From Aspidiotus rigidus (taxonomy: Eukaryota; Arthropoda; Insecta; Hemiptera; Diaspididae): DNA of 64,000 nucleotides. A model generated the notes under the pieces. It was not told where the DNA came from. It made no database searches and saw nothing but the letters and a program-made list of their open reading frames with translations. Made by a program: the position numbers and the translations under genes. The stretch lies in NCBI GenBank assembly GCA_035079385.1, contig JAVHKY010000013.1:10972001-11036000 (forward strand). Reading direction: 5' to 3'. Shown here piece by piece: positions 23,037 through 42,726 of the stretch (its first letter is position 1; each line of letters begins with the position of its first letter).

Positions 23037-23299
23037 TCACTTGCCAATAGTGGAGAAAGGATCCTATCATAATTATTATATACTTCTCCAAAGTGCAGGT
23101 ACGCACATAGAAACTGTTTGGGGGAGTTATTCCCTCCCTAGAAAGAAACAAAACGTGCTGAAAAAAGAAACTGGACATCAGTTTTATTTGAACCTTTGTT
23201 AGCCAAAATGAGCCAAATTTTTTCACCTTTGTTTTTAGCTTTCCTGATTCTTGAAAAAGTAGGATATAAAGTTAGGTTCTAGGAATTTGCCCCTTCTGC

Positions 23300-24000
23300 G
23301 CATGCGTAAGTCCGGCTTTTGACGGCGATTGATCATTCTTTCTCTGTCTAAATGACGGCGATCTCTTTCTAAGAAGGTTTGTCCGGCTATATGACGTCGC
23401 GGCGGCGATCTTTTTTGTACGAAAGGTTGTCCGGTTATTTGACGACGAGGAGCGTGATGATGTCTTTCTGTCTAAGTTATGACCGTGTCCTATGTAGAAG
23501 TATTTGTATAGGTATAAGGAAAAAAAAAAATTAATTTTACATGACGAGGGTGAATATCACGAATGTTGTTTTTTTGTTAGGGCTTCCTGTTTAATTAAGA
23601 ATATTGTTTTTCGTTGGGGGTGCTTGATTGGCGCTACGAACGAACGAAAATGAATGAGTTGTCCGTTCAACGACGATCTCTCTCTTTCTAAGTTAGGCCC
23701 GTATATGACCATCTCTTTCTAGGTATAAGGGAAAAATTGATATTTACTCGTCCAGGGAGAATATTACGGCGAGTCGTTTTTACGTTTTTCGTCGGTGGTG
23801 CTTGATTGACGTTATGAACGAACGAAAATGAATGAATCGCCCGTTCGACGACGATCTCTTTCTATTCGACGACGTTTTCTTTCTAAAGAGGGAGGGTGGC
23901 AGAGGAAGGGTTAAGAAGTTTATCGCGTTAGGTATAAGGAAAATCGATATTTACTCAACGGTGAATGTTTTAATTTTTGGAAAAATAATGAGTTGCTCGT
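23300..24000. repeat. Degenerate tandem/dispersed repeat at the outer end of the left arm
   Basis: Recurrent blocks: GACGGCGATCTCTTTCTAAG, CGACGATCTCTTTCTA and similar, TAGGTATAAGGAAAA, and a near-identical 75-bp segment (GGTGCTTGATTG.CG..., then GAACGAACGAAAATGAATGA) at about 23,619 and 23,797, i.e. 178 bp apart. Mirrored at 42,026-42,726. No coding sense. Confidence 0.6.
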
Positions 24001-24992
24001 CGGTTTTGGGGGGTTAATGCATTATGTATGATCGTGGTCATCGTCATTTCAACGTGTAGGCGGTGATACGACGAACGAATTCACCCTACATATTCGATCA
24101 TGTAAGAGTAAAGGGTGTACAAGGATCGCTATGAATGAAGGGTGACCATGAATGAGTGTATCATATTCGCTCGTAAAAGTAGAGAATAGGTATGTACTAT
24201 ATGTAGGGCTTAGCGTAGTATGAATGAGTGTAACTATACGATCGAATGATGGAATGAATTTGTTGAAGTCCCTCTTTAATATATTTTCGTTTATTATCTG
24301 AATAAGTCTAATTAGAATTTTTAGGGAGTTCTCATAGCATCTACGCGTTGATCTAATTTAAGGTAAGGTAAGCTACCGACACGCGATCAAACGCACACCT
24401 TTAATTTCGATTGTAAAAATCGATACGCACGCCTCGTTCCGTCCTCGTTGTTTTGGTCCAGCTGCGATTTGTCGGTTTACCTATTACTTTTTCGCGTATA
24501 TATGAAAATGGGGTAAACGCTTGTAAAAAAATATTCACAACTCCTTAAGAATGCGACGATTTTAATTTATTGATGTATCGGGCTAATTCTCCATATAACA
24601 GATACCTACCCCTCGTAAAAATCAACGGGCAAACGCCATTCCTAGGAGTATCATTTCAAATACGACTCGAATAAATGGGTATAGTTTTACGAATAAATGG
24701 GTATAGTTTTACGACTTAAGCCTAATTTTTTGTATTATTTTGAAAAACATCTGGTCAGTTTCAGTTTTTCCAAAGGTGTGAGAATTCTGACCGTACCCTT
24801 ATTGTTTCGCTGGCCCGCTTTGCCCTGTGATGCGTTAGAAGGATGATTCTTACATTATTTTTCATTGGATCAGATCTCCCTATGATTAAATTCAACAAAC
24901 CAATCAGATGATAGGTGGGAATATCCGTGATCAACATCAACTTATATGTTTTTTTCAAAGTATCATTCTCATTTTAACGTTGACTCGGCAAA

Positions 24993-25430
24993 ATGTACGT
25001 TAGAAGCTTGGAAGATTTATATCGCGAGAAAATATTCAATGTAAGATGTCTTCATCCAAGGCACATTGCATGCTTCACATATGTACCTTTTATGCGTGAT
25101 ATTCTCAAGTTTTATAAAATATCTGGTAGTATCATCGACTTTTTTCAGTAAGAAAGAAAACAAAAAAAACCATATTCACTTAACAACTTGAATTCCCAGT
25201 AAGGGAGTGGATCACTCGCTTCTCTATTCCCACTTTCCAGTCTTTCCTCCAGAATATCTGCATGAACGTTGATGAGAAATTTTTCCAGACATATTACGTT
25301 GTAAAAGACGTTTAGCGCACGTGAAGAGCAAGAGTTCTTTTTTCTCTTAAAGGTAACGCTGACAAACGCGATGAATATTATTGGGCGATAATTCTAGGCT
25401 TGGAATCGAAGCGTTGGTGGATGGAGATAT
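24993..25430 (+). pseudogene. Decayed H2B-like histone family member (left arm)
   Basis: ATG 24,993 opens MYVRSLEDLYREKIFNV, homologous to the KSLQKLCLKKIFSNI start of the intact 31.4-kb gene. It continues FTYVPFMRDILKFYKISGS, like TYVPKERHFITFCQLSG, to an in-frame stop near 25,150. After a gap the family resumes in other frames: FLQNICMNVDEKFFQTYYVV (like IRNLCINLDEKYFKSFFVV in the intact gene) and then LFSLKGNADKRDEYYWAI (like LFFSLCKGDSSKELNLAV in the second copy). At least one stop and two frame changes break it. A perfect histone-type stem-loop still follows at 25,471, on the same strand, as expected for a dead copy of a histone-type gene. Confidence 0.65.
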
Positions 25431-25470
25431 AATTTTATTTATTATACGAGACAAGTATTATCATTAAAAC

Positions 25471-25486
25471 GGTCCTTTTCAGGACC
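25471..25486 (+). terminator. Histone mRNA 3' stem-loop
   Basis: GGTCCTTTTCAGGACC, preceded by AAAAC and followed by ACATAA. Six-pair stem with TTTC loop, exactly the metazoan histone SL pattern GGYYCT-TTTC-AGRRCC that SLBP and U7 snRNP act on. It lies downstream of the decayed H2B-like copy on its coding strand. Confidence 0.85.
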
Positions 25487-25736
25487 ACATAATTCTTTCG
25501 ATCATAGAAGCGATCGCGAAAAAATAGCAGATGTATCTACTATTTTCAATGATCAAACGGAAGATTCATCCACCAATCAGACGAGCAGGGTGCAAAGCTC
25601 AAAGTTAGACAAACTAACTAACTCCGAAAATATTACTATTATTATTATTATTATCATCGTATTATTTCGATCGCAACAAAATGTTCAGCCTGCGTGTTTT
25701 GTGCGTACTTAAGATATTCCTTATAAGATGTCTTAA

Positions 25737-26165
25737 ATGCGACCTTACCCAATACAAGATAGGGCGGTGTGGTCAATGCATACCTTAGCCATATTTACCC
25801 GACGCAAAGATCATATTCAATTTTATAAATTATGCACAAGCAGCGTAGATTTTTTCACTCAACAGAAAAACCAAAGTTGTATATTCAGACACCGTATGCT
25901 GATAAATAGAGACTATCATTGCTGTTTTCTCAAGGGCATAATGCAGAATTTTATACGCAATACTTGTTTAAATCTCCATGTCACATATTTCAAAACGTTC
26001 GCGATTGTAAGAGACTTTTTCTTCCCTCACGACAACAGCATTGAATTTGTAATAGCGCCACGTTTATTGACCGCGAAAGAAATTAAACATCTCTTCTTTT
26101 CCTTATGCAAGGGTGATTCTAGCAAGGAATTGAATCTGGCTGTGGTGCTGCGTATATTCGAATGA
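25737..26165 (+). CDS. H2B-like divergent histone-fold protein, second copy (142 residues)
   Basis: Paralogue of the 31.4-kb gene. ATG 25,737 (MRPYPIQDRAVW). Residues about 75-142 align with histone H2B: GIMQNFIRNTCLNL matches the alpha2 start GIMNSFVNDIFERI, and LLTAKEIKHLFFSLCKGD matches the alpha3/alphaC region TITSREIQTAVRLLLPGE. About six extra residues sit in loop 2 (FFPHDNSIEFVIAPR). Upstream, another frame (from ATG 25,681, MFSLRVLCVLKIFL) resembles the N-terminus of the intact paralogue, so this copy may have suffered a frameshift and now starts internally. No stem-loop follows within 300 bp. Nuclear DNA binding is inferred only from the fold resemblance. It may be a partial pseudogene. 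Confidence 0.5.
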   Translation: MRPYPIQDRAVWSMHTLAIFTRRKDHIQFYKLCTSSVDFFTQQKNQSCIFRHRMLINRDYHCCFLKGIMQNFIRNTCLNLHVTYFKTFAIVRDFFFPHDNSIEFVIAPRLLTAKEIKHLFFSLCKGDSSKELNLAVVLRIFE

Positions 26166-27006
26166 GATGAAATAATTACGGGCAAAGTCATAGAACACAC
26201 AACTTTACATACTACAAACATGTCGACACACCTTGTACGATCACTCTGGTGTAGCGGTAGGTCGTGAACTCTTGATTCATATAGAAGCGGATAGAGTACG
26301 ACGATGTTCCCTTCCTTATTGGCTTCCGGCCTATAGTTACTTCCAGTGTGGGTAGAGTTAGTGTGCACTCTTAGATGAAGAGGGAGCTAGTGTAGCACCC
26401 GATGACAAAACACACACACTCTCACGCTTGTATCAAATTTAGGATGAGCAGATGAAGCTAGATAAGATTGTATGACAGAACTGAAAATTTCAATTATCTT
26501 TTATTCAAGTCCAAGGAATTTTCTAGCAAAAACGTTACTTCACTGGAATTTTTCAAATAACTAACTGAATGTCTAACCCTGTCAAGCTTAGAGCTGCGAG
26601 GAAGTATGGTCGCTAGCGCGTCACTGCCGTTTAGAGTACAAATTATAATGGGGTGTTTTGTTCTGGAGGACCCACTTGCTTGACTAATGAAATTATAAGT
26701 TAAGGTCAATCGCGATCCACTCGGTGCTAATCAACTTGAGTCGTATTGTAGAACATGCCCTAGACAAACGTGAGTGATCAATCAAAGTAGGTACCTAATA
26801 TTACTCAACTCATGTAAAGTCAAATCTAAATTGAAGGTTATTACTCTTCTCTCTGTCAAACATTTGCAGACGTTTGGATACTCTGTCACTTCATCCATGG
26901 AACAAGTACATTCTGTACAGTCTTTTTTTCATAAACCAGGACGCTCTGTTTTGCAATCCCATCTAGGTTTAATAACATTCTCAATTTCGTTACTATTGAA
27001 CATTAT
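26166..27006. other. Left arm, no supported gene
   Basis: The minus-strand frame 26,494-26,709 (MTLTYNFISQASGSS..., ending SLDLNKR just before an AATAAAAG) is the only coding-like stretch. It has no recognised domain. The minus frame 26,027-26,368 overlaps the H2B-like copy and is its shadow. Mirrored in the right arm at 39,020-39,860. Confidence 0.35.
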
Positions 27007-27230
27007 TTAAAACTTTCGTCGAATATAAGGATTATTTTCAGCAAAGTATTTGCTTATGACATTGTAAATCACATTAGTCACCAGATCTTTTACACGAGCC
27101 TTAAGCCCGAGTCTATTGGTAGCACATTATTCAACATCGAGCATTCATACAAATAGTGATTGTTGATCAATTGGAAGGCTTTTTCCGGATTTGAACGAAT
27201 TTGTTTAATAGCGTTGATGATATTACCCCG
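27007..27230 (-). pseudogene. Frameshifted H2A-like family copy (left arm)
   Basis: Reading the minus strand from 27,230, RGNIINAIKQIRSNPEKAFQ matches RNIIDVIKKISSHHEKASRW of the H2A-like gene at the palindrome centre. After a frameshift near the middle, VKDLVTNVIYNVISKYFAEN matches AKDLVPNVIYIVLCKHFEQL. It stops soon after (RRKF then TAA) without the PR-containing alpha3 segment. One frameshift and loss of the C-terminus make it a pseudogene, unless an unseen short intron restores the frame. Confidence 0.6.
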
Positions 27231-28575
27231 CTCCTTAGTGTTATTAGTTGAACACAACGTAAGTCAACGTACGACTCTGAATTGAAGTTGGTCAAACTTG
27301 TGAATGAACCTACACTTGTCCCTCTCCAACCCGATTCAAAAAACTTATAAAATCGACCAAATTCAATTATATTTATAATTATCGACCTGAAAGATATTAT
27401 TTCATGAGAAAACCTAGAGATAGTTGACCACACACATAACAGAGTCGAAAGACTGTTCGCGATCTATATTATTCTCGTTATTATACATTTTGAAGCATAT
27501 TTTACAAATTCAGGGAGGTGGTAAGTGTTAGAGAGGGTAGGGTTGACTAACAATACCGACTCACGTTCATCCACCGTTCTCTTCCTCGTAAACTATCACG
27601 ATAATAATATGAACACAGGAGATAGGTACTTTCGATGAATACTTTATTGACAATTCTCTTTAATCATTGACTGTGAGTGTCGGTGTGTGTTTATTGTAGG
27701 CACATTATTTGAAATATATTCTCGTTCTCCGAGACACTCTGGGAGGAGAAAAAAACAAGTCAATAATGTCTAGGAAAGAAAAAATAAAACAAAGTAGGTA
27801 AGATAAATTTTACAAACTTATTCTACATAATATAAATTTAAAACCAATAGCCAAAGCAAGGGCTAAAGCCTAAACAATAAGAATTATGAATTAAAATAAA
27901 ATAAATGAATTATATTTAAAAAATGGTCAGAAGATAGACAAAAGAGAACTTACAAAATTTACTACTTTTACCATGAAATGTATCTTATCAATATTGCTTC
28001 ACGCTGTACTAGAAATCGTTTGTTTTAGTTTCGATGATATCGTCTCAAATAAATGTTCCTCTAAAACCTATTTGAGGGGCGTTCGCCCTGAAAAAATTGC
28101 ATGGTATAATTAATTAATTGGTATAACATCACATATTCTTCACTGAATGAAAATAAGTCAATATTTTTTTCTTGGGTGAGGGTCTAAACTTCATCTCGCG
28201 CGCAATTAGTGTTTTTACTTATGTATGTACACACGAAACTTATCTTCAAACTATAGAGGTTGCTAGGTGAAGCAATAGATGTGAACGTAAAACAAACTTT
28301 TAAATTAGACATGTTAGCGAGAAATAATCACTAATACACTCTGAAAAATCAGAAATAAAAGAATAATCGGACTATTTCACATTAATAATAATAATAATAA
28401 GAAGAAGAAGAACATGGAATGAAAAATTAAGTTCCAAATCTGACTAGAACGATTCGAATCTCTTGAGTACCAAAGTTCAGAAAGATAAAAAAGATGTGAT
28501 CTTTTTTATTCCAGATTTTGACGGGTGAAGAGAAACTGTAGACCGAATTCATGGTCTATTCAAAATATTCCCCAT

Positions 28576-28606
<31 letters not shown>

Positions 28607-28694
28607 GTGATCGAAATTATTTTTAAAAATTCGAATAATAAATTTTGAAGATGCAAGAAGCTCGTTTTATCCTCAAACGGGGATAAACGTTATA
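27231..28694. other. Left arm, AT-rich, no gene
   Basis: Nothing coding is seen. Low-complexity landmarks are an (AAT)n/(AAG)n run at 28,384-28,412 and a poly-A tract at about 28,576-28,601. The same tracts occur in the right arm at the mirrored places with no net length difference. Mirrored at 37,332-38,795. Confidence 0.4.
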
Positions 28695-29093
28695 TCATTC
28701 CCGGTCTTTGCGTCGAAACATTAGCTTGGGCTCATTATCGCCTCCCCTTATCCGAAGATCTAATTGTTCTTCTGTCGCAAAAACATCCTCAACATTTTCT
28801 AGTTCCCGCAAATTCATCTCCTTCTGTTCCCTCTCCAGTCTCGCTTCCACCTAATTAAGTTATAATACCTATCTGTTTTGTTTATAAGTGATCTACTCTG
28901 TTCTAATATTTATTAAAATACATTATATTGAATTATATACCCTCATTTTATTTCACACTTGGCATACACCCTTACCTCCAAAGATTTGTTTGAGGTTTGT
29001 ACTTGTAGAACTCTTTCTGTCACTTGACTTAAGTACTACCTTTGCTGTTGGCAAACTTGTCGTTTCTTCTACTTCACCCAACTCGTGATTCAT
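28695..29093 (-). CDS. Two-block candidate gene, unrecognised, frame broken at the splice (left arm)
   Basis: Minus strand: block 1 from ATG 29,093 to 28,976 encodes MNHELGEVEETTSLPTAKVV... and ends ...NLKQIFG at a perfect GGAG|GTAAGG donor. Block 2, after a TTAATTAG acceptor, runs 28,850-28,695 as VEARLEREQKEMNLRELENV... to ...MFRRKDRE and a stop. Block 2 has strong coding composition (charged, no stops for 52 codons). Canonical splicing joins the blocks one base out of frame, so the protein would end early (...EFAGTRKC). It is either a recent pseudogene, a sequencing indel, or has another donor. No family is recognised. Confidence 0.4.
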
Positions 29094-29962
29094 TGCAAAT
29101 AGACTCAAAACACAAAGAGAATAAAGTAGCGGTAAAAGACAACCTTAATATCAATTTCAAATATTTTGGATATGCGAGCAAATTGTGATTGAAACGCAAT
29201 TTAAAAAAAAAAACAAAAACAAAAAAAAACTGATTTCCCATACATTCTATCCTTGTATTGGCGTAGAACAAAACTTTTTTTATCTAGCTAAATTGTTCGT
29301 ATTAGCTACTTGTAGTTTCCTTCTTTAATTTTTGAATGAAATAAATACACTTTTTGTTTTCCTTATTTAGCGATGTTATAATATTTGTAACTGGGATGGA
29401 AACCATTCTCTAGGCGCCATTGGTGCAGGCTTAAATTATTTTGTTGAGGAAATATAATAGCCTCTGTAAGACTTTTGTCGAAAGGAGGTTAAACGCAATT
29501 TGCCGAGAAATGGAAAGCGAGAATTGTTCCGAGAGGTTTGTAGGTAAACCCACACACACTGAATCATGTATTGTCTCACCACGAAAAAAAATCATTGAAT
29601 GTCCTTTGGTCAAATAAAGTGTGTACAAGTACATTGCTTTTTGAAGGAAAAAGAGGCTTCTCTCTGTATAATATGATCGAAGCTGACAAATACGCAAGAG
29701 ACGCTTGTTGTTTCAGATGTTGGAGGGTTTACCTAGAAACGGGTTCCCATGTTGTGGTTTGCAGAGAGAGACTGACTATAGAGCCCCATATATCTTTGAG
29801 GCGGACAAATGCAAGAGAGGTGCTCGTTGTTTCAAGCAAAAAGATCGTTCCATCTTTGTATTTTTCTACTTATTTATTCAGAATGAGTTAAAATACTATA
29901 TAAATGTACACTGCGATTTTTACCATTCATTCAAATGGGTATACAAGCGCTTCTTTAGAAAG
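29094..29962. other. Left arm, FLYWCH gene 3' side
   Basis: No supported gene. Two short similar segments (GAAGCTGACAAATACGCAAG near 29,680 and GAGGCGGACAAATGCAAGAG near 29,798) are a small direct duplication about 120 bp apart. AATAAA on the minus strand near 29,875 would serve as the FLYWCH polyadenylation signal. Confidence 0.35.
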
Positions 29963-30691
29963 TTAAACAATTATACGAGCTTTGCGGAGTTTTTTCTCTA
30001 TTTTGCGTATTTTTGGAAGCGTTTTGGTGTTTCCAGATTTTAGAGCTTTATGAAATAAATACAAGCTTTCAATAAGGTCATTAATATCAGTGGTTGAGTT
30101 GTAAAATGGCTTCTTGTTGGGCTTATGTAATACCATCCTAGCGATTGTCCCATTATTAATATCTTCTTCTCCAGAAGATGAACTATATTCCAACGGCTGA
30201 AAATGATTTGATGAACTCGCTTTGTCGGGTTCCTGTGATAACGTCTTAGCAAAAGACCCATCATTAAAATCTTCTTCTTTGGAAGATGAACTACTTTCCA
30301 TCGGTTGGAAATATTTTGATGTATTTTCCATTGTATGATGTTGATAATTGCTTTCGCTGAATTTGTCATTTGATAACTGCTCATGAGTGCTAGCAGGAAG
30401 AGTAGAAGTAGACAAAGTTGAAATAGGCTCGGGATCAAATCCTCTATCCTCGGAAGCAAGTTTTTGTGTCATTTTCTCTAACAAAGGTACACACTTATTA
30501 TTGACATTTTCTTGATGATTATGTTTGGGGTACTCTCCTAAAACCTTGTTATCAGCATCATATTTTAGGTATGCTTTACACGTTCTTCGTTCGGCACATC
30601 TCCATCTCTTTCCACCTCTGACCAAAGGCTTATGGAATACAAACTTGTATCCTTTGAAAATAATCTGATTTTCATTATGTTTTTCAAGCAT
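29963..30691 (-). CDS. FLYWCH zinc-finger protein (242 residues, left arm)
   Basis: A FLYWCH-type domain spans residues about 9-60: F17-V-F19, GGKRWRC (W30, C32), C38, and paired histidines H57 and H59 in PKHNHQ, the expected C2H2-type ligand set. The family binds DNA or proteins and is common in insects and beside MULE-type transposons. The middle is a Ser/Glu-rich, likely disordered region containing a duplicated unit of about 40 residues (YFQPMESSSSSKEEDF... and HFQPLEYSSSSGEEDI...). The C-terminus is basic and helical (RKIEKKLRKARI), possibly nuclear-localising. The start is ATG 30,691. It is divergent from the H2B-like gene across a GGTCCC array; TATAAAAA lies about 85 bp upstream of the ATG. 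It has no transposase domain. An identical copy is at 35,335-36,063. Confidence 0.8.
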   Translation of the reverse strand: MLEKHNENQIIFKGYKFVFHKPLVRGGKRWRCAERRTCKAYLKYDADNKVLGEYPKHNHQENVNNKCVPLLEKMTQKLASEDRGFDPEPISTLSTSTLPASTHEQLSNDKFSESNYQHHTMENTSKYFQPMESSSSSKEEDFNDGSFAKTLSQEPDKASSSNHFQPLEYSSSSGEEDINNGTIARMVLHKPNKKPFYNSTTDINDLIESLYLFHKALKSGNTKTLPKIRKIEKKLRKARIIV

Positions 30692-30772
30692 TTCTCAACT
30701 CAACGCTAGTATTGCTCAACTATCTTTGTTGCCTTAGTTTATATTACCGATCAAGTGCCTTTGTCGTTATCA

Positions 30773-30926
30773 TTTTTATAGATTTTGGTCCCATTAGATC
30801 CTATTGTGGTCCCGTGGTCCCGTTTGGTCCCTTTGTGGTCCCGTGGTCCCGTTTGGTCCCTTTGTGGTCCCGTGGCCCCGTTTGCTCCCGTTGTGGTTCC
30901 GCGTGGTCCCCTATCTCTTATATAAA
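30773..30926. promoter_or_regulatory. Bidirectional promoter: GGTCCC hexamer array between divergent TATA boxes
   Basis: A minus-strand TATAAAAA (30,773-30,780) faces the FLYWCH gene. A plus-strand TATAAA (30,921-30,926) faces the H2B-like gene. Between them, 30,787-30,910, lie nine perfect GGTCCC hexamers plus GGCCCC, GCTCCC and GGTTCC variants. They are arranged as a loose 29-bp higher-order unit (GTGGTCCC GTGGTCCC GTTTGGTCCC). The placement suggests reiterated factor-binding sites shared by both genes; this is inference. Confidence 0.65.
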
Positions 30927-31225
30927 GACAAAACGCTTTAGTTTGAAGTAGCCTTGTTTAAGCAATCTTTGTCAACTCTTTCAAAAGTCCTTTGGGGATT
31001 AAGTGCTAGCGTTGAAAAATTGATCATAATTGCCTAGTGTGTTTGAAAATTTCATCTGAGAGGAATCAATTCTAGAGGATGAATCTTAAACATCATTCAA
31101 AAATGAGAGTTGCGTAAAGGCAAAGAGGGGGTGCTTATTTTTCATAAGGGACTAAAGATTTGATGGGAAGAACTGGTAAGAATGATTAACTAATTTTTTT
31201 CTGCTCCTCAGAAAGAAAAAAAAAG

Positions 31226-31244
31226 TATATATATATATATATAT
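31226..31244 (+). repeat. (TA)n microsatellite upstream of the H2B-like gene
   Basis: A 19-base alternating TA run about 165 bp before ATG 31,408. It could act as a nearer TATA-like element than 30,921. Mirrored at 34,782-34,800. Confidence 0.6.
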
Positions 31245-31407
31245 GAAAGCCGCGAATGTGTTCTCCGACACTAGAAAAATGGCTCACTAATTCTTTCTAA
31301 AACAAAGAGGCATCATTGTAGGAGGAGATTCGATTTTTTCGTCAATCCAACAACAGAAACTTAGCCATATACGTGTTCATTCTTCATTCTTCTTTGACTC
31401 AGTGAAA

Positions 31408-31992
31408 ATGTCTCCGTGTTCAATTTTACGGCAACCAAAGAGCTTACAAAAATTATGTCTCAAAAAAATATTCAGTAATATTGGTACAGTCCATATAGGG
31501 TGTATGTGCGATGAGACGCGTCGACTTAAACAAAGAAGTAGTACTTCGTTTCTTAGAAAATACGCTCCACAATGCCTTAAAATTCGCACATATGTACCAA
31601 AAGAAAGACATTTTATTACATTTTGTCAATTATCTGGGTGGATAGTACGATTTTACAGCGAAGAGAAAAATCAGGATAGTCCTTTGAACATGCGACTCTA
31701 TGGAAAGCGAGATAAATACACCCGTTATCATCCTGAAATAATTCGGAATCTCATACGTAATTTATGCATAAATCTCGATGAGAAATATTTCAAGTCGTTC
31801 TTTGTCGTGAAAGATCTTTATTATTCACGTGATGTAATCAACATTATTATAGCTCCTCGCTTACTAAAGTGGAAAGAAATGAAACTTCTCTTTGACTACT
31901 TATGTGGTGGAATTCCATCAATGAAAGACGCTCTAGAGAGAGCATTGAACATAAGAATGGGACGTAGATGTTATTTTTTCCGGAGTAATTAG
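31408..31992 (+). CDS. H2B-like divergent histone-fold protein with histone-type 3' end (194 residues, left arm)
   Basis: The only undamaged member of the family in this arm. Start ATG 31,408 (MSPCSILRQPKSLQKL); the frame upstream offers only GTG. The N-terminal about 110 residues are basic and unlike any tail I know. The C-terminal part fits histone H2B: IIRNLIRNLCINL at alpha2 (H2B IMNSFVNDIFERI), then IIIAPRLLKWKEMKLLFDYL and GGIPSMKDALERAL at alpha3/alphaC (H2B TITSREIQTAVRLLLPGE and LAKHAVSEGTKAV), with a longer loop 2. It is intronless, as replication-type histone genes are. Thirty-four bases after the TAG stands a perfect histone mRNA stem-loop. The stem-loop is direct evidence for histone-type 3' processing; the fold assignment is by eye. 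It may be a germline or sperm chromatin protein. Confidence 0.62.
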   Translation: MSPCSILRQPKSLQKLCLKKIFSNIGTVHIGCMCDETRRLKQRSSTSFLRKYAPQCLKIRTYVPKERHFITFCQLSGWIVRFYSEEKNQDSPLNMRLYGKRDKYTRYHPEIIRNLIRNLCINLDEKYFKSFFVVKDLYYSRDVINIIIAPRLLKWKEMKLLFDYLCGGIPSMKDALERALNIRMGRRCYFFRSN

Positions 31993-32026
31993 TATAATAT
32001 ACGCTAGCATTAGATATTTTTAAAAC

Positions 32027-32042
32027 GGCCCTTTTCAGGGCC
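32027..32042 (+). terminator. Histone mRNA 3' stem-loop of the H2B-like gene
   Basis: GGCCCTTTTCAGGGCC with AAAAC before and ACCCCTGA after: six-pair stem, TTTC loop and ACC cleavage side, exactly as in replication-dependent histone mRNAs. It starts 35 nt after the stop codon, within the usual distance. CAAAGCGAA about 35 nt downstream could be a weak U7 (HDE) site. Confidence 0.92.
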
Positions 32043-32067
32043 ACCCCTGATTCTCTAAAACATGCAA

Positions 32068-32238
32068 TTATTTATTCAAAGCGAATAAATAAAAGGTTGG
32101 TCTAGTTGAGAGACAAGTTGCTTTACACGTTCTTCGTTCAGCACATCTCCATCTCTTTCCACCTCTGACCAAAGGCTTATGGAATACAAACTCGTATCCT
32201 TTGAAAATAATCTGATTTTCATTATGTTTTTCAAGCAT
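32068..32238 (-). pseudogene. Truncated FLYWCH gene start (left arm)
   Basis: ATG 32,238 begins the same MLEKHNENQIIFKGY N-terminus as the full FLYWCH gene (one change, K to E, at residue 16). It follows the domain to RRTCKA, where homology ends at about 32,119; 16 unrelated codons then lead to a stop. The paired histidines of the zinc site are lost. It was carried along when the promoter cassette 30,572-31,054 was copied to 32,119-32,637. Confidence 0.8.
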
Positions 32239-32319
32239 TTCTCAACTCAACGCTAGTATTGCTCAACTATCTTTGTTGCCTTAGTTTATATTACCGATCA
32301 AGTGCCTTTGTCGTTATCA

Positions 32320-32508
32320 TTTTTATAGATTTGGTCCCATTAGATCCTATTGTGGTCCCGTCTGGTCCCTTTGTGGTCCCTTCAAGGCCCCGGTTGCTCC
32401 CGCTGTGGTCCCGTTTGGTCCCTTCGTGGTCCCGTGCTCCCGTTTGGTCCAGTGGTCCCATTTGCTCCCGTTGCGGTCCCACTTGGTCCCCTATCTCTTA
32501 TATATAAA
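32320..32508. promoter_or_regulatory. Second copy of the GGTCCC bidirectional promoter
   Basis: TATAAAAA on the minus strand (32,320-32,327), GGTCCC-type hexamers at 32,333-32,490, and TATAAA on the plus strand (32,503-32,508). It is a diverged, longer copy of 30,773-30,926. The plus-strand TATA lies 207 bp before ATG 32,710 of the H2A-like gene. Flanking DNA is about 95% alike by eye, while the hexamer array differs in length. Confidence 0.6.
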
Positions 32509-32709
32509 GACAAAGCGCTTTAGTTTGAAGTAGCCTTGTTTAAGCAATCTTTGTCAACTCTTTCAAAAGTCCTTTGGGGATTAAGTGCTAGCGTTGAAAA
32601 ATTGATCGTATTTGCCTAGTGTGTTTGAAAATTTCACTTATGAAGTTTCTTCTTGCTCGTATGCTTCAGTGGTGAGGAGAAAAAAAAAAGTAAAAGTTTA
32701 CGAGTGAAG

Positions 32710-33006
32710 ATGGAACCTCGTAATATCATCGACGTTATTAAAAAAATTTCGTCTCACCATGAGAAAGCTTCTAGATGGATCAACGATCGCTTCCCTAACG
32801 TTAGTAACGGGACATTAATGTGTGGAGCAAATAGACCTATAGTTTGCGCGAAAGATTTAGTGCCGAATGTAATTTACATTGTTTTGTGTAAACATTTTGA
32901 ACAACTCTGTTTTCTGCTTGTGTTAAATGATGTCGCGATTAAAGTTCCGCGAGAACAGTTTTTTCTATCGTACTTCGTTTTTTTTTTCGACGGTAAAAAC
33001 TTGTAA
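32710..33006 (+). CDS. H2A-like protein, C-terminus cut by the palindrome centre (left arm)
   Basis: ATG 32,710 (MEPRNIIDVIKKISSHHEK). The segment CGANRPIVCAKDLVPNVIYI resembles the H2A alpha2 start [20 protein letters not shown], and AIKVPREQFFLSYF sits where H2A has RIIPRHLQLAI. Canonical H2A would next have the rest of alpha3 and the docking domain, but here the repeat arm ends at 32,994. The last residues (KNL) come from the spacer, giving 98 residues. The two arms end differently because of a 10T/11A difference and the switch into the spacer. No stem-loop is therefore available to test. The H2A assignment is weaker than the H2B one and rests partly on pairing with that family. Confidence 0.45.
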   Translation: MEPRNIIDVIKKISSHHEKASRWINDRFPNVSNGTLMCGANRPIVCAKDLVPNVIYIVLCKHFEQLCFLLVLNDVAIKVPREQFFLSYFVFFFDGKNL

Positions 33007-33030
33007 ACATTCATCCGAATTGGATTCGTG
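32995..33030. other. Palindrome spacer (36 bp)
   Basis: The only non-mirrored bases at the centre. The spacer holds a small imperfect dyad (ATCCGAATTGGAT at 33,013-33,025). It does not resemble the standard PacBio hairpin adapter as I know it. The arms adjoining it end in CGACGGT / ACCGTCG next to the T/A homopolymers. Confidence 0.85.
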
Positions 33031-33316
33031 ACCGTCGAAAAAAAAAAACGAAGTACGATAGAAAAAACTGTTCTCGCGGAACTTTAATCGCGACATCATT
33101 TAACACAAGCAGAAAACAGAGTTGTTCAAAATGTTTACACAAAACAATGTAAATTACATTCGGCACTAAATCTTTCGCGCAAACTATAGGTCTATTTGCT
33201 CCACACATTAATGTCCCGTTACTAACGTTAGGGAAGCGATCGTTGATCCATCTAGAAGCTTTCTCATGGTGAGACGAAATTTTTTTAATAACGTCGATGA
33301 TATTACGAGGTTCCAT
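33011..33316 (-). CDS. H2A-like protein, right-arm copy with a different truncated end
   Basis: Mirror of 32,710-33,006 starting at ATG 33,316. Identical until the homopolymer, where one extra A shifts the frame so the protein ends FFFRRSRIQFG (101 residues) instead of FFFDGKNL. The native C-terminus of this gene is absent from the window. Confidence 0.42.
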   Translation of the reverse strand: MEPRNIIDVIKKISSHHEKASRWINDRFPNVSNGTLMCGANRPIVCAKDLVPNVIYIVLCKHFEQLCFLLVLNDVAIKVPREQFFLSYFVFFFRRSRIQFG

Positions 33317-33517
33317 CTTCACTCGTAAACTTTTACTTTTTTTTTTCTCCTCACCACTGAAGCATACGAGCAAGAAGAAACTTCATAAGTGAAATTTTCA
33401 AACACACTAGGCAAATACGATCAATTTTTCAACGCTAGCACTTAATCCCCAAAGGACTTTTGAAAGAGTTGACAAAGATTGCTTAAACAAGGCTACTTCA
33501 AACTAAAGCGCTTTGTC

Positions 33518-33706
33518 TTTATATATAAGAGATAGGGGACCAAGTGGGACCGCAACGGGAGCAAATGGGACCACTGGACCAAACGGGAGCACGGGACCAC
33601 GAAGGGACCAAACGGGACCACAGCGGGAGCAACCGGGGCCTTGAAGGGACCACAAAGGGACCAGACGGGACCACAATAGGATCTAATGGGACCAAATCTA
33701 TAAAAA
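33518..33706. promoter_or_regulatory. GGTCCC bidirectional promoter, right-arm mirror of 32,320-32,508
   Basis: Same array in reverse orientation (GGGACC on the plus strand), with the TATA boxes at 33,518-33,523 (toward the H2A-like copy) and 33,699-33,706. Confidence 0.6.
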
Positions 33707-33787
33707 TGATAACGACAAAGGCACTTGATCGGTAATATAAACTAAGGCAACAAAGATAGTTGAGCAATACTAGCGTTGAGTTGAGAA

Positions 33788-33958
33788 ATGCTTGAAAAAC
33801 ATAATGAAAATCAGATTATTTTCAAAGGATACGAGTTTGTATTCCATAAGCCTTTGGTCAGAGGTGGAAAGAGATGGAGATGTGCTGAACGAAGAACGTG
33901 TAAAGCAACTTGTCTCTCAACTAGACCAACCTTTTATTTATTCGCTTTGAATAAATAA
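33788..33958 (+). pseudogene. Truncated FLYWCH gene start (right arm)
   Basis: Mirror of 32,068-32,238: 56 codons, FLYWCH N-terminal half only, then unrelated residues to a TAA. Confidence 0.8.
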
Positions 33959-33983
33959 TTGCATGTTTTAGAGAATCAGGGGT

Positions 33984-33999
33984 GGCCCTGAAAAGGGCC
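33984..33999 (-). terminator. Histone mRNA 3' stem-loop (right arm)
   Basis: Mirror of 32,027-32,042, downstream of the right-arm H2B-like gene on its coding strand. Confidence 0.92.
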
Positions 34000-34033
34000 G
34001 TTTTAAAAATATCTAATGCTAGCGTATATTATA

Positions 34034-34618
34034 CTAATTACTCCGGAAAAAATAACATCTACGTCCCATTCTTATGTTCAATGCTCTCTCTAGAGCGTCT
34101 TTCATTGATGGAATTCCACCACATAAGTAGTCAAAGAGAAGTTTCATTTCTTTCCACTTTAGTAAGCGAGGAGCTATAATAATGTTGATTACATCACGTG
34201 AATAATAAAGATCTTTCACGACAAAGAACGACTTGAAATATTTCTCATCGAGATTTATGCATAAATTACGTATGAGATTCCGAATTATTTCAGGATGATA
34301 ACGGGTGTATTTATCTCGCTTTCCATAGAGTCGCATGTTCAAAGGACTATCCTGATTTTTCTCTTCGCTGTAAAATCGTACTATCCACCCAGATAATTGA
34401 CAAAATGTAATAAAATGTCTTTCTTTTGGTACATATGTGCGAATTTTAAGGCATTGTGGAGCGTATTTTCTAAGAAACGAAGTACTACTTCTTTGTTTAA
34501 GTCGACGCGTCTCATCGCACATACACCCTATATGGACTGTACCAATATTACTGAATATTTTTTTGAGACATAATTTTTGTAAGCTCTTTGGTTGCCGTAA
34601 AATTGAACACGGAGACAT
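34034..34618 (-). CDS. H2B-like divergent histone-fold protein, right-arm copy
   Basis: The translated sequence is identical to that of 31,408-31,992, with the same intronless structure, start (ATG 34,618) and stem-loop 34 bases after the stop. If the palindrome is real this is a second functional copy; if it is an assembly product only one exists. Confidence 0.6.
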   Translation of the reverse strand: MSPCSILRQPKSLQKLCLKKIFSNIGTVHIGCMCDETRRLKQRSSTSFLRKYAPQCLKIRTYVPKERHFITFCQLSGWIVRFYSEEKNQDSPLNMRLYGKRDKYTRYHPEIIRNLIRNLCINLDEKYFKSFFVVKDLYYSRDVINIIIAPRLLKWKEMKLLFDYLCGGIPSMKDALERALNIRMGRRCYFFRSN

Positions 34619-35099
34619 TTTCACTGAGTCAAAGAAGAATGAAGAATGAACACGTATATGGCTAAGTTTCTGTTGTTGGATTGACGAAAAAATCGAATCT
34701 CCTCCTACAATGATGCCTCTTTGTTTTAGAAAGAATTAGTGAGCCATTTTTCTAGTGTCGGAGAACACATTCGCGGCTTTCATATATATATATATATATA
34801 CTTTTTTTTTCTTTCTGAGGAGCAGAAAAAAATTAGTTAATCATTCTTACCAGTTCTTCCCATCAAATCTTTAGTCCCTTATGAAAAATAAGCACCCCCT
34901 CTTTGCCTTTACGCAACTCTCATTTTTGAATGATGTTTAAGATTCATCCTCTAGAATTGATTCCTCTCAGATGAAATTTTCAAACACACTAGGCAATTAT
35001 GATCAATTTTTCAACGCTAGCACTTAATCCCCAAAGGACTTTTGAAAGAGTTGACAAAGATTGCTTAAACAAGGCTACTTCAAACTAAAGCGTTTTGTC

Positions 35100-35253
35100 T
35101 TTATATAAGAGATAGGGGACCACGCGGAACCACAACGGGAGCAAACGGGGCCACGGGACCACAAAGGGACCAAACGGGACCACGGGACCACAAAGGGACC
35201 AAACGGGACCACGGGACCACAATAGGATCTAATGGGACCAAAATCTATAAAAA
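35100..35253. promoter_or_regulatory. GGTCCC bidirectional promoter, right-arm mirror of 30,773-30,926
   Basis: The hexamer array (35,116-35,239) reads GGGACC on the plus strand and is flanked by the divergent TATA boxes of the H2B-like (minus) and FLYWCH (plus) genes. Confidence 0.63.
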
Positions 35254-35334
35254 TGATAACGACAAAGGCACTTGATCGGTAATATAAACTAAGGCAACAA
35301 AGATAGTTGAGCAATACTAGCGTTGAGTTGAGAA

Positions 35335-36063
35335 ATGCTTGAAAAACATAATGAAAATCAGATTATTTTCAAAGGATACAAGTTTGTATTCCATAAGCCT
35401 TTGGTCAGAGGTGGAAAGAGATGGAGATGTGCCGAACGAAGAACGTGTAAAGCATACCTAAAATATGATGCTGATAACAAGGTTTTAGGAGAGTACCCCA
35501 AACATAATCATCAAGAAAATGTCAATAATAAGTGTGTACCTTTGTTAGAGAAAATGACACAAAAACTTGCTTCCGAGGATAGAGGATTTGATCCCGAGCC
35601 TATTTCAACTTTGTCTACTTCTACTCTTCCTGCTAGCACTCATGAGCAGTTATCAAATGACAAATTCAGCGAAAGCAATTATCAACATCATACAATGGAA
35701 AATACATCAAAATATTTCCAACCGATGGAAAGTAGTTCATCTTCCAAAGAAGAAGATTTTAATGATGGGTCTTTTGCTAAGACGTTATCACAGGAACCCG
35801 ACAAAGCGAGTTCATCAAATCATTTTCAGCCGTTGGAATATAGTTCATCTTCTGGAGAAGAAGATATTAATAATGGGACAATCGCTAGGATGGTATTACA
35901 TAAGCCCAACAAGAAGCCATTTTACAACTCAACCACTGATATTAATGACCTTATTGAAAGCTTGTATTTATTTCATAAAGCTCTAAAATCTGGAAACACC
36001 AAAACGCTTCCAAAAATACGCAAAATAGAGAAAAAACTCCGCAAAGCTCGTATAATTGTTTAA
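35335..36063 (+). CDS. FLYWCH zinc-finger protein, right-arm copy
   Basis: The translated protein is identical to that of 29,963-30,691 (242 residues, ligands C32, C38, H57, H59; duplicated Ser/Glu-rich unit; basic C-terminus). Its 3' flank carries AATAAA at about 36,147. Confidence 0.78.
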   Translation: MLEKHNENQIIFKGYKFVFHKPLVRGGKRWRCAERRTCKAYLKYDADNKVLGEYPKHNHQENVNNKCVPLLEKMTQKLASEDRGFDPEPISTLSTSTLPASTHEQLSNDKFSESNYQHHTMENTSKYFQPMESSSSSKEEDFNDGSFAKTLSQEPDKASSSNHFQPLEYSSSSGEEDINNGTIARMVLHKPNKKPFYNSTTDINDLIESLYLFHKALKSGNTKTLPKIRKIEKKLRKARIIV

Positions 36064-36932
36064 CTTTCTAAAGAAGCGCTTGTATACCCATTTGAATGAA
36101 TGGTAAAAATCGCAGTGTACATTTATATAGTATTTTAACTCATTCTGAATAAATAAGTAGAAAAATACAAAGATGGAACGATCTTTTTGCTTGAAACAAC
36201 GAGCACCTCTCTTGCATTTGTCCGCCTCAAAGATATATGGGGCTCTATAGTCAGTCTCTCTCTGCAAACCACAACATGGGAACCCGTTTCTAGGTAAACC
36301 CTCCAACATCTGAAACAACAAGCGTCTCTTGCGTATTTGTCAGCTTCGATCATATTATACAGAGAGAAGCCTCTTTTTCCTTCAAAAAGCAATGTACTTG
36401 TACACACTTTATTTGACCAAAGGACATTCAATGATTTTTTTTCGTGGTGAGACAATACATGATTCAGTGTGTGTGGGTTTACCTACAAACCTCTCGGAAC
36501 AATTCTCGCTTTCCATTTCTCGGCAAATTGCGTTTAACCTCCTTTCGACAAAAGTCTTACAGAGGCTATTATATTTCCTCAACAAAATAATTTAAGCCTG
36601 CACCAATGGCGCCTAGAGAATGGTTTCCATCCCAGTTACAAATATTATAACATCGCTAAATAAGGAAAACAAAAAGTGTATTTATTTCATTCAAAAATTA
36701 AAGAAGGAAACTACAAGTAGCTAATACGAACAATTTAGCTAGATAAAAAAAGTTTTGTTCTACGCCAATACAAGGATAGAATGTATGGGAAATCAGTTTT
36801 TTTTTGTTTTTGTTTTTTTTTTTAAATTGCGTTTCAATCACAATTTGCTCGCATATCCAAAATATTTGAAATTGATATTAAGGTTGTCTTTTACCGCTAC
36901 TTTATTCTCTTTGTGTTTTGAGTCTATTTGCA

Positions 36933-37331
36933 ATGAATCACGAGTTGGGTGAAGTAGAAGAAACGACAAGTTTGCCAACAGCAAAGGTAGTACTTAAGTC
37001 AAGTGACAGAAAGAGTTCTACAAGTACAAACCTCAAACAAATCTTTGGAGGTAAGGGTGTATGCCAAGTGTGAAATAAAATGAGGGTATATAATTCAATA
37101 TAATGTATTTTAATAAATATTAGAACAGAGTAGATCACTTATAAACAAAACAGATAGGTATTATAACTTAATTAGGTGGAAGCGAGACTGGAGAGGGAAC
37201 AGAAGGAGATGAATTTGCGGGAACTAGAAAATGTTGAGGATGTTTTTGCGACAGAAGAACAATTAGATCTTCGGATAAGGGGAGGCGATAATGAGCCCAA
37301 GCTAATGTTTCGACGCAAAGACCGGGAATGA
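36933..37331 (+). CDS. Two-block candidate gene, right-arm copy
   Basis: Mirror of 28,695-29,093: block 1 36,933-37,050, block 2 37,176-37,331. The same one-base frame mismatch across the intron is present in both arms, so it is not random read error in one of them. Confidence 0.4.
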
Positions 37332-37419
37332 TATAACGTTTATCCCCGTTTGAGGATAAAACGAGCTTCTTGCATCTTCAAAATTTATTATTCGAATTTT
37401 TAAAAATAATTTCGATCAC

Positions 37420-37450
<31 letters not shown>

Positions 37451-37622
37451 ATGGGGAATATTTTGAATAGACCATGAATTCGGTCTACAGTTTCTCTTCA
37501 CCCGTCAAAATCTGGAATAAAAAAGATCACATCTTTTTTATCTTTCTGAACTTTGGTACTCAAGAGATTCGAATCGTTCTAGTCAGATTTGGAACTTAAT
37601 TTTTCATTCCATGTTCTTCTTC

Positions 37623-37653
<31 letters not shown>

Positions 37654-38795
37654 GTCCGATTATTCTTTTATTTCTGATTTTTCAGAGTGTATTAGTGATT
37701 ATTTCTCGCTAACATGTCTAATTTAAAAGTTTGTTTTACGTTCACATCTATTGCTTCACCTAGCAACCTCTATAGTTTGAAGATAAGTTTCGTGTGTACA
37801 TACATAAGTAAAAACACTAATTGCGCGCGAGATGAAGTTTAGACCCTCACCCAAGAAAAAAATATTGACTTATTTTCATTCAGTGAAGAATATGTGATGT
37901 TATACCAATTAATTAATTATACCATGCAATTTTTTCAGGGCGAACGCCCCTCAAATAGGTTTTAGAGGAACATTTATTTGAGACGATATCATCGAAACTA
38001 AAACAAACGATTTCTAGTACAGCGTGAAGCAATATTGATAAGATACATTTCATGGTAAAAGTAGTAAATTTTGTAAGTTCTCTTTTGTCTATCTTCTGAC
38101 CATTTTTTAAATATAATTCATTTATTTTATTTTAATTCATAATTCTTATTGTTTAGGCTTTAGCCCTTGCTTTGGCTATTGGTTTTAAATTTATATTATG
38201 TAGAATAAGTTTGTAAAATTTATCTTACCTACTTTGTTTTATTTTTTCTTTCCTAGACATTATTGACTTGTTTTTTTCTCCTCCCAGAGTGTCTCGGAGA
38301 ACGAGAATATATTTCAAATAATGTGCCTACAATAAACACACACCGACACTCACAGTCAATGATTAAAGAGAATTGTCAATAAAGTATTCATCGAAAGTAC
38401 CTATCTCCTGTGTTCATATTATTATCGTGATAGTTTACGAGGAAGAGAACGGTGGATGAACGTGAGTCGGTATTGTTAGTCAACCCTACCCTCTCTAACA
38501 CTTACCACCTCCCTGAATTTGTAAAATATGCTTCAAAATGTATAATAACGAGAATAATATAGATCGCGAACAGTCTTTCGACTCTGTTATGTGTGTGGTC
38601 AACTATCTCTAGGTTTTCTCATGAAATAATATCTTTCAGGTCGATAATTATAAATATAATTGAATTTGGTCGATTTTATAAGTTTTTTGAATCGGGTTGG
38701 AGAGGGACAAGTGTAGGTTCATTCACAAGTTTGACCAACTTCAATTCAGAGTCGTACGTTGACTTACGTTGTGTTCAACTAATAACACTAAGGAG

Positions 38796-39019
38796 CGGGG
38801 TAATATCATCAACGCTATTAAACAAATTCGTTCAAATCCGGAAAAAGCCTTCCAATTGATCAACAATCACTATTTGTATGAATGCTCGATGTTGAATAAT
38901 GTGCTACCAATAGACTCGGGCTTAAGGCTCGTGTAAAAGATCTGGTGACTAATGTGATTTACAATGTCATAAGCAAATACTTTGCTGAAAATAATCCTTA
39001 TATTCGACGAAAGTTTTAA
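38796..39019 (+). pseudogene. Frameshifted H2A-like family copy (right arm)
   Basis: Mirror of 27,007-27,230. RGNIINAIKQ... in one frame, then VKDLVTNVIYNVIS... in another, stop at 39,017-39,019. Confidence 0.6.
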
Positions 39020-39860
39020 ATAATGTTCAATAGTAACGAAATTGAGAATGTTATTAAACCTAGATGGGATTGCAAAACAGAGCGTCCTGGTTTATGAAAA
39101 AAAGACTGTACAGAATGTACTTGTTCCATGGATGAAGTGACAGAGTATCCAAACGTCTGCAAATGTTTGACAGAGAGAAGAGTAATAACCTTCAATTTAG
39201 ATTTGACTTTACATGAGTTGAGTAATATTAGGTACCTACTTTGATTGATCACTCACGTTTGTCTAGGGCATGTTCTACAATACGACTCAAGTTGATTAGC
39301 ACCGAGTGGATCGCGATTGACCTTAACTTATAATTTCATTAGTCAAGCAAGTGGGTCCTCCAGAACAAAACACCCCATTATAATTTGTACTCTAAACGGC
39401 AGTGACGCGCTAGCGACCATACTTCCTCGCAGCTCTAAGCTTGACAGGGTTAGACATTCAGTTAGTTATTTGAAAAATTCCAGTGAAGTAACGTTTTTGC
39501 TAGAAAATTCCTTGGACTTGAATAAAAGATAATTGAAATTTTCAGTTCTGTCATACAATCTTATCTAGCTTCATCTGCTCATCCTAAATTTGATACAAGC
39601 GTGAGAGTGTGTGTGTTTTGTCATCGGGTGCTACACTAGCTCCCTCTTCATCTAAGAGTGCACACTAACTCTACCCACACTGGAAGTAACTATAGGCCGG
39701 AAGCCAATAAGGAAGGGAACATCGTCGTACTCTATCCGCTTCTATATGAATCAAGAGTTCACGACCTACCGCTACACCAGAGTGATCGTACAAGGTGTGT
39801 CGACATGTTTGTAGTATGTAAAGTTGTGTGTTCTATGACTTTGCCCGTAATTATTTCATC

Positions 39861-40289
39861 TCATTCGAATATACGCAGCACCACAGCCAGATTCAATTCC
39901 TTGCTAGAATCACCCTTGCATAAGGAAAAGAAGAGATGTTTAATTTCTTTCGCGGTCAATAAACGTGGCGCTATTACAAATTCAATGCTGTTGTCGTGAG
40001 GGAAGAAAAAGTCTCTTACAATCGCGAACGTTTTGAAATATGTGACATGGAGATTTAAACAAGTATTGCGTATAAAATTCTGCATTATGCCCTTGAGAAA
40101 ACAGCAATGATAGTCTCTATTTATCAGCATACGGTGTCTGAATATACAACTTTGGTTTTTCTGTTGAGTGAAAAAATCTACGCTGCTTGTGCATAATTTA
40201 TAAAATTGAATATGATCTTTGCGTCGGGTAAATATGGCTAAGGTATGCATTGACCACACCGCCCTATCTTGTATTGGGTAAGGTCGCAT
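39861..40289 (-). CDS. H2B-like protein, second copy, right arm
   Basis: Mirror of 25,737-26,165 with an identical 142-residue frame. Confidence 0.48.
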   Translation of the reverse strand: MRPYPIQDRAVWSMHTLAIFTRRKDHIQFYKLCTSSVDFFTQQKNQSCIFRHRMLINRDYHCCFLKGIMQNFIRNTCLNLHVTYFKTFAIVRDFFFPHDNSIEFVIAPRLLTAKEIKHLFFSLCKGDSSKELNLAVVLRIFE

Positions 40290-40539
40290 TTAAGACATCT
40301 TATAAGGAATATCTTAAGTACGCACAAAACACGCAGGCTGAACATTTTGTTGCGATCGAAATAATACGATGATAATAATAATAATAATAGTAATATTTTC
40401 GGAGTTAGTTAGTTTGTCTAACTTTGAGCTTTGCACCCTGCTCGTCTGATTGGTGGATGAATCTTCCGTTTGATCATTGAAAATAGTAGATACATCTGCT
40501 ATTTTTTCGCGATCGCTTCTATGATCGAAAGAATTATGT

Positions 40540-40555
40540 GGTCCTGAAAAGGACC
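40540..40555 (-). terminator. Histone mRNA 3' stem-loop (right arm, pseudogene copy)
   Basis: Mirror of 25,471-25,486: GGTCCT stem, TTTC loop, on the strand of the decayed H2B-like copy. Confidence 0.85.
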
Positions 40556-40595
40556 GTTTTAATGATAATACTTGTCTCGTATAATAAATAAAATT

Positions 40596-41033
40596 ATATC
40601 TCCATCCACCAACGCTTCGATTCCAAGCCTAGAATTATCGCCCAATAATATTCATCGCGTTTGTCAGCGTTACCTTTAAGAGAAAAAAGAACTCTTGCTC
40701 TTCACGTGCGCTAAACGTCTTTTACAACGTAATATGTCTGGAAAAATTTCTCATCAACGTTCATGCAGATATTCTGGAGGAAAGACTGGAAAGTGGGAAT
40801 AGAGAAGCGAGTGATCCACTCCCTTACTGGGAATTCAAGTTGTTAAGTGAATATGGTTTTTTTTGTTTTCTTTCTTACTGAAAAAAGTCGATGATACTAC
40901 CAGATATTTTATAAAACTTGAGAATATCACGCATAAAAGGTACATATGTGAAGCATGCAATGTGCCTTGGATGAAGACATCTTACATTGAATATTTTCTC
41001 GCGATATAAATCTTCCAAGCTTCTAACGTACAT
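40596..41033 (-). pseudogene. Decayed H2B-like family member (right arm)
   Basis: Mirror of 24,993-25,430 with the same stop and frame breaks. Confidence 0.62.
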
Positions 41034-42025: not shown

Positions 42026-42726
42026 ACGAGCAACTCATTATTTTTCCAAAAATTAAAACATTCACCGTTGAGTAAATATCGATTTTCCTTATACCTAACG
42101 CGATAAACTTCTTAACCCTTCCTCTGCCACCCTCCCTCTTTAGAAAGAAAACGTCGTCGAATAGAAAGAGATCGTCGTCGAACGGGCGATTCATTCATTT
42201 TCGTTCGTTCATAACGTCAATCAAGCACCACCGACGAAAAACGTAAAAACGACTCGCCGTAATATTCTCCCTGGACGAGTAAATATCAATTTTTCCCTTA
42301 TACCTAGAAAGAGATGGTCATATACGGGCCTAACTTAGAAAGAGAGAGATCGTCGTTGAACGGACAACTCATTCATTTTCGTTCGTTCGTAGCGCCAATC
42401 AAGCACCCCCAACGAAAAACAATATTCTTAATTAAACAGGAAGCCCTAACAAAAAAACAACATTCGTGATATTCACCCTCGTCATGTAAAATTAATTTTT
42501 TTTTTTCCTTATACCTATACAAATACTTCTACATAGGACACGGTCATAACTTAGACAGAAAGACATCATCACGCTCCTCGTCGTCAAATAACCGGACAAC
42601 CTTTCGTACAAAAAAGATCGCCGCCGCGACGTCATATAGCCGGACAAACCTTCTTAGAAAGAGATCGCCGTCATTTAGACAGAGAAAGAATGATCAATCG
42701 CCGTCAAAAGCCGGACTTACGCATGC
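42026..42726. repeat. Degenerate repeat at the outer end of the right arm
   Basis: Mirror of 23,300-24,000 (AGAAAGAGATCGTCGTCGAA and related blocks on the plus strand). Confidence 0.6.

Follow-up and report, generated by a model that had tools for sequence, protein, structure and literature searches.

The window, that is, the whole 64,000-nt stretch of Aspidiotus rigidus DNA analysed here, contains a mobile element that has well-defined ends (AGTAGGATATA...TATATCCTACT) and a 6-bp target-site duplication and is spread through the genome. The element is a single long palindrome, and each of its arms carries an intact open reading frame (ORF), gene C, followed by a histone-type stem-loop that is also present in diverged relatives of this gene. 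The features are as follows; the arm coordinates include one matching flank base.

23252..23257, + strand: left target-site duplication TGAAAA
23257..32987, + strand: left arm, 9731 nt, 100% complementary to the right arm
23258..42768, no strand: whole palindromic mobile element, 5'-AGTAGG...CCTACT-3'
24993..25432, + strand: gene A, a frameshifted, diverged relative of gene C, with a mirror copy in the right arm
25471..25486, + strand: stem-loop of gene A, GGTCCTTTTCAGGACC, 38 nt past the stop of the last frame
25681..26165, + strand: gene B, a second relative of gene C, with its N-terminal part in a different frame
near 27037-27233, - strand: diverged relic of the 98-aa ORF
29963..30691, - strand: FLYWCH zinc-finger ORF, 242 aa, in the arm (PF04500, E 3.2e-6)
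31408..31992, + strand: gene C, left-arm copy, an intact 194-aa ORF without histone similarity
31990..31992, + strand: stop codon of gene C
32027..32042, + strand: histone-type stem-loop GGCCCTTTTCAGGGCC of the left-arm gene C (RF00032, 40.2 bits)
32710..33006, + strand: 98-aa ORF adjoining the palindrome centre
32988..33038, no strand: central spacer of the palindrome, 51 nt
33039..42769, - strand: right arm
33984..33999, - strand: stem-loop of the right-arm gene C (RF00032 and pattern scan)
34034..34618, - strand: gene C, right-arm second copy, 100% identical to the left copy
42769..42774, + strand: right target-site duplication TGAAAA

The gene C ORF is as the initial annotation had it, a single open frame of 194 aa from ATG to stop, and the histone mRNA stem-loop claimed there is borne out as well: the hairpin lies 34 nt past the stop, is followed by ACCCC and, with an E of 2.4e-8 against Rfam RF00032, scores above the gathering score of 34. 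It folds into a 6-bp stem with a 4-nt loop (-11.4 kcal/mol). The GGYYYTTTTCARRRCC pattern occurs four times in the window and in none of 100 shuffles; these occurrences represent two sites, each found twice because the window holds a palindrome. Beyond the initial annotation, we identified the exact inverted second copy of the ORF and hairpin, the related hairpin at 25471-25486 and the palindrome itself. An AATAAA at 32084-32089, about 41 nt 3' of the gene C hairpin, makes poly(A) ends possible.

A 90% direct repeat in the window (30572-31054 and 32119-32636) covers the beginning of the FLYWCH ORF together with the sequence 5' of it; its second copy runs into the 98-aa ORF, not gene C. The arms also contain a GGTCCC-rich minisatellite (30786-30910 and 32352-32422), and similar GGGACC units lie 3' of the stem-loop in 57% relatives of gene C (L055/L056). 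Matches to MIR7504, mir-3747 and Phe_leader at the palindrome centre were taken as a mere effect of the long hairpin. A 596-aa BTB-BACK-Kelch ORF occupies one open frame at 51647-53437 on the minus strand.

Copies of the element and diverged relatives of gene C

The genome searched comprises 441 Mb in 102 contigs. In all seven copies sampled (the window, C15, C20, C28, C3, C29 and C30), the boundaries of the element are equal within a few bases and the flanks are unrelated. Six of the seven show a perfect 6-bp duplication (TGAAAA, TGCGTA, CACATA, ACGGTT, ACTTCG and TTTCGG), the exception being C15; C29 and C30 are missing part of one arm near the centre. The palindrome centre is common to the copies read, namely the window, C15, C28 and C3, in the last of which it is inverted (L044/L045), as insertion of the element in both orientations would predict.

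Past the first kb, the copies differ by a few substitutions per 1000 nt, which suggests that the family is young. The two arms of the same copy are separated by 0 mismatches in the window, 2 in C28, 5 in C20, 14 in C15 and 11 in C3, with 0, 2, 13 and 6 gap positions in C28, C20, C15 and C3, respectively (C3 was aligned in two pieces). In each of the latter four copies, these differences are smaller than those between the copy and the window, which points to renewal of both arms together at each copying, or else to gene conversion. That the palindrome is an artefact of assembly, with a read folded back on itself, might be suspected from the 100% identity of the window arms but is rejected as barely credible because the two sides have different flanks, other loci carry the same palindrome and centre, most of them with target-site duplications, and, in four further copies, the two arms are distinguished by 2 to 14 mismatches as well as gaps.

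Gene C is not a single gene; it has multiple copies and is carried by a mobile element. Among the 150 of 213 candidates scored, the identical intact gene C protein gave at least 33 matches at at least 19 loci, and the same search also lists intact 92% variants and broken copies. At the nucleotide level, gene C is identical in 22 of the 28 loci fetched around RF00032 matches. Two loci carrying the 92% variant (L022 and L023) differ from gene C by 10 synonymous changes over 129 sites and 15 nonsynonymous changes over 453, and four of the 28 (L021 and L025-L027) contain frameshifts or stops together with a still perfect hairpin.

The relatives within the arm are considerably more diverged. Gene B shares 39% identity with gene C over 114 aa, with pS of 0.65 and pN of 0.40 over 118 codons, and, as judged by coding sequence comparison, the gene C ORF is demonstrably under protein-level constraint. 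The pattern scan found no hairpin for gene B; the gene A stem-loop scores 29.3 bits against RF00032 (E 2.7e-4), under the gathering score. Elsewhere in the genome, the intact 55-57% relatives are arranged as inverted pairs with some 16-17 kb between the members (C54, C33, C30 and C50, and in pieces on C11), suggesting that a related gene may sit near both ends of larger elements with different interiors.

In genes A and B, the CCAAT-box-like motif ACCAATCAGA precedes the first ATG by about 85-100 nt (24899-24908 and 25572-25581); none was seen by eye upstream of gene C.

The protein encoded by gene C

In the initial annotation, gene C was interpreted as a highly diverged H2B-like gene. The part of this interpretation that concerns the histone-type 3' signal stands, the core of the signal being the same as the host histone cores, whereas the H2B identity is not supported, neither Pfam nor PDB yielding a histone match for gene C at E up to 10. 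The sole Pfam match at this limit is AvrPiz-t (E 0.02, under its cut-off), PDB yields three weak matches (best E 0.086), none of them a histone, and the profiles of the gene C family are without any PDB match at E up to 10.

The alignment with H2B alpha2, alpha3 and alphaC that had been proposed is not above chance. Smith-Waterman comparison of gene C with Drosophila H2B gives a score of 20, against a shuffle mean of 27.9, that is reached by 500 of 500 shuffles, and the probabilities from hhalign are 0.2% and 0.1%, with NIIIAPRLLKWKEM aligned against EIQTAVRLLLPGEL, probably the very stretch that the initial annotation meant. The SRD of this alignment is not conserved in the paralogous gene B, which has PHDNS there. 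For H2A, the Smith-Waterman score is 28 (shuffle mean 26.2, reached by 167 of 500 shuffles), and hhalign gives 0.4% over a different stretch from the H2B one; the scores with H3 and H4 are equalled by 427 and 342 of 500 shuffles, respectively. Two AlphaFold2 models of gene C, built with few relatives, have mean pLDDT values of 36.0 and 38.5, too poor for judging the fold; both mix strands and helices and are without a long alpha2. The 41 Foldseek matches of the second model at E<=10, none of them at E<=0.001, are meaningless at such model confidence. An ordinary H2B gene with its own stem-loop is present in the host genome (L052).

Judging from these comparisons, gene C does not look like a histone. 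A perfect stem-loop and a short stretch matching H2B might suggest a core histone of the H2B or H2A kind whose sequence has diverged extremely but whose replication-dependent 3' end was retained, but the empty Pfam and PDB searches, the shuffle results, the hhalign values of only 0.1-0.4% and the loss of SRD in gene B make this highly improbable; the lack of a long alpha2 in the models may point the same way, with little weight at their confidence.

Other identities were considered for this protein. The N-terminal SLxxLCxxKI of genes C and B looks like a BC-box and is the feature shared with SOCS-box/BC-box proteins; gene C differs from these in matching the first helix only. The hhalign comparison of the gene C N-terminus with the SOCS box gives 66% (P 5.8e-5) over 14 columns, for a family picked after the motif had been seen and for comparison sequences that may be inexact. 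Given this post hoc choice, the possibly inexact sequences and the lack of a Pfam SOCS match for gene C at E up to 10, the BC-box is a lead only. In 32 Smith-Waterman comparisons, the score of gene B with SOCS2 was reached by 2 of 500 shuffles and that of piece A2 with SOCS3 by 0 of 500; both were taken as chance among 32, and both pieces are without the BC-box motif. An F-box at the gene C N-terminus was rejected (hhalign 0.1%). Searches for gene C relatives in viral_contigs and in the GTDB genome_contigs returned 16 and 121 pattern stretches, respectively, none of which was confirmed.

The stem-loop in the gene C family and in host histone genes

The genome contains at least 75 scored RF00032 matches. 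Of these, 33 form an array on C33; the other 42 lie outside it and are mostly inverted pairs about 2 kb apart. Among the 33 of these 42 that were read, three belong to host histone genes (H1, L020; H4, L024; H2B, L052) and 30 to the gene C family; the remaining nine adjoin gene C protein matches. Altogether, 39 of the 42 listed non-array stem-loops are ascribed to the element gene, a share that leans upward because at least the host H3 hairpin (L024) is absent from the list of the best 75 matches and host histones are thus under-counted.

The 16-nt core of the gene C hairpin is identical to that of H1, H2B, H3 and H4 among the host genes read, and its AAAAC flank is the one found in host H3 and H4. 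Within the family, the hairpin varies: compared with gene C, gene A shows a paired change at stem pair 3, the 80% relative (L054) has U-G at the same pair, and the 55-57% relatives (L055 and L056) carry AGCCCTTTTCAGGGCT, 29 nt past the stop, in which pair 1 is A-U, not G-C. The spacing between the stop and the hairpin is 29 nt in L055, 34 in gene C and 38 in gene A. All six stem pairs are still paired in gene A, L054 and L055/L056, so that pairing holds in 24 of 24 cells across the four different hairpins of the family, and at two of the pairs both partners have changed. The pairing is lost when the hairpin partners are slid; yet, with these four distinct rows, 61 of 500 shuffles equal the covariation.

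Downstream of the stem-loop, host H1, H3, H4 and H2B have TTTCTT(A/G)A 9-10 nt after the hairpin. Gene C shows a partial match, TGATTCTCTAAAAC, that is equalled at 2.5% of random places, and gene A is no better than chance (49% of random places). The signal therefore resembles that of the host in its stem-loop, whereas its U7 part is doubtful.

These observations bear on whether the stem-loop might be a passive, functionless relic acquired along with a piece of some histone gene of the host. The identity of the 16-nt core and the AAAAC flank to host H3/H4, the degraded downstream element and a covariation no better than shuffles are all compatible with such an origin; young copies would retain the hairpin anyway, and the broken copies, which keep it perfect, indicate that part of the conservation may reflect youth rather than use. 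We nevertheless consider a relic quite improbable, given that the hairpin is fully paired in L055 and L056, in L054 and in gene A and that two pairs have changed on both sides while the surrounding sequence diverged more.

In the array at C33:2665426-2764570, the 33 stem-loops are spaced about 3 kb from one another. L051 covers the three of these 33 that were read; there, the upstream H2B-like sequence matches Drosophila H2B in pieces only (residues 2-55, in one case 2-69 and 101-123), which would fit truncated H2B copies in this array.

Relation to Mavericks and proposed expression of gene C

The host genome appears to be rich in elements of the Maverick type. The PolB domain PF03175 (DNA_pol_B_2) gave at least 185 matches, often two per ORF, with 84 of 445 candidates scored, and the genome probably contains many PolB-bearing elements of this type. 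Many of the DNA_pol_B_2 ORFs are long and open, reaching 2038 aa, for example, at C20:1633744 and C24:2353708. Two distant gene C relatives each have a PolB ORF of like orientation nearby, 3.3 kb away on C72 and about 9 kb away on C62; for 17 distant gene C loci (counted by hand) and 185 PolB matches, at least two such neighbours at 10 kb or less have a chance of about 0.9%, this distance limit having been set post hoc.

A scan of 15 arm ORFs and 5 pieces (104 stop-to-stop ORFs were listed) gave no match to PolB, an integrase, a capsid protein, an ATPase or a protease, and none of the PolB matches listed is inside the palindromes; in the absence of a Maverick core gene from the ORFs scanned, the element was filed as Maverick-like and non-autonomous, not as a Maverick. 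Mavericks are not known to be one palindrome over their whole length. The lack of Maverick genes in the scanned ORFs and the palindromic structure could be accommodated by a DNA transposon unrelated to Mavericks, of the long-TIR or foldback kind and with duplications of 6 bp. Ginger2 elements are reported to target 6-bp sequences too, but with TGTNR ends (PMC2836005), whereas the termini of vertebrate Mavericks are reported as (AGT)2//(ACT)2 or (AG)3//(CT)3, with 6-bp duplications (PMC8097293). The AGTAGG...CCTACT termini fit the (AGT)2 motif, which comes from vertebrate Mavericks, at 5 of 6 bases, one short of a full match; this partial fit, compared with the Ginger2 ends, and the two gene C relatives near PolB ORFs make a non-Maverick transposon rather unlikely.

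The reading that we favour, with a probability of roughly 0.6, is that gene C is a non-histone gene located in each arm of a palindromic, non-autonomous Maverick-like element of about 19.5 kb and uses the 3'-end formation of host histone mRNAs. Because the gene C hairpin is the same as that of the host histones, it suggests that a recently active element borrows the histone message machinery of the cell. The host stem-loop binding protein (SLBP) would bind the gene C stem-loop and the histone pre-mRNA machinery would cut the message; this would yield a gene C message without a poly(A) tail, whose synthesis and translation would fall mainly in S phase, to the advantage of an element that is copied along with the DNA. 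The palindrome could go back to a single event in which the same end of a Maverick-like ancestor, present twice, was fused head to head, and the element may be mobilised in trans by one of the Mavericks of this genome.

More tentatively, a Maverick-like lineage may have tied an accessory gene, encoding a fast-evolving non-histone protein, to SLBP-dependent, poly(A)-free, S-phase-limited expression and become a self-spreading palindrome that rebuilds identical arms in each round of copying. The stem-loop end is regarded as the mark of histone mRNA in metazoa, and a literature search with partial coverage (titles and the beginnings of abstracts) found no paper on a histone stem-loop in a mobile element. 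If the family keeps the hairpin through deep divergence, selfish DNA can enter S-phase-coupled, poly(A)-free expression, and such elements would test naturally which requirements the pathway has apart from the hairpin. In a genome of this kind, stem-loop searches for histone genes may return mostly the element gene.

Compared with the replication-dependent histone mRNA 3' end (RF00032), gene C has the core and AAAAC flank of host H3/H4 and ACC after the stem, the hairpin lies 29-38 nt past the stop in its family, and the gene is short and intronless; it differs in a coding region without histone similarity, in a weak U7-type element with a poly(A) signal just 3', and in its location within a mobile element. 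Like Mavericks/Polintons, the element has a 6-bp target-site duplication, inverted termini starting with AGT and a length of about 20 kb, in a host genome with many PolB (PF03175) matches; unlike them, it is without a PolB, integrase or capsid gene in the ORFs scanned and is a single palindrome with arms of ~9.7 kb. Left-end palindromic (snap-back) defective genomes are known in protein-primed DNA viruses and likewise contain one end twice, in head-to-head arrangement around a short unique centre, whereas the element described here is a family that has spread through the genome, with a centre common to the copies read.
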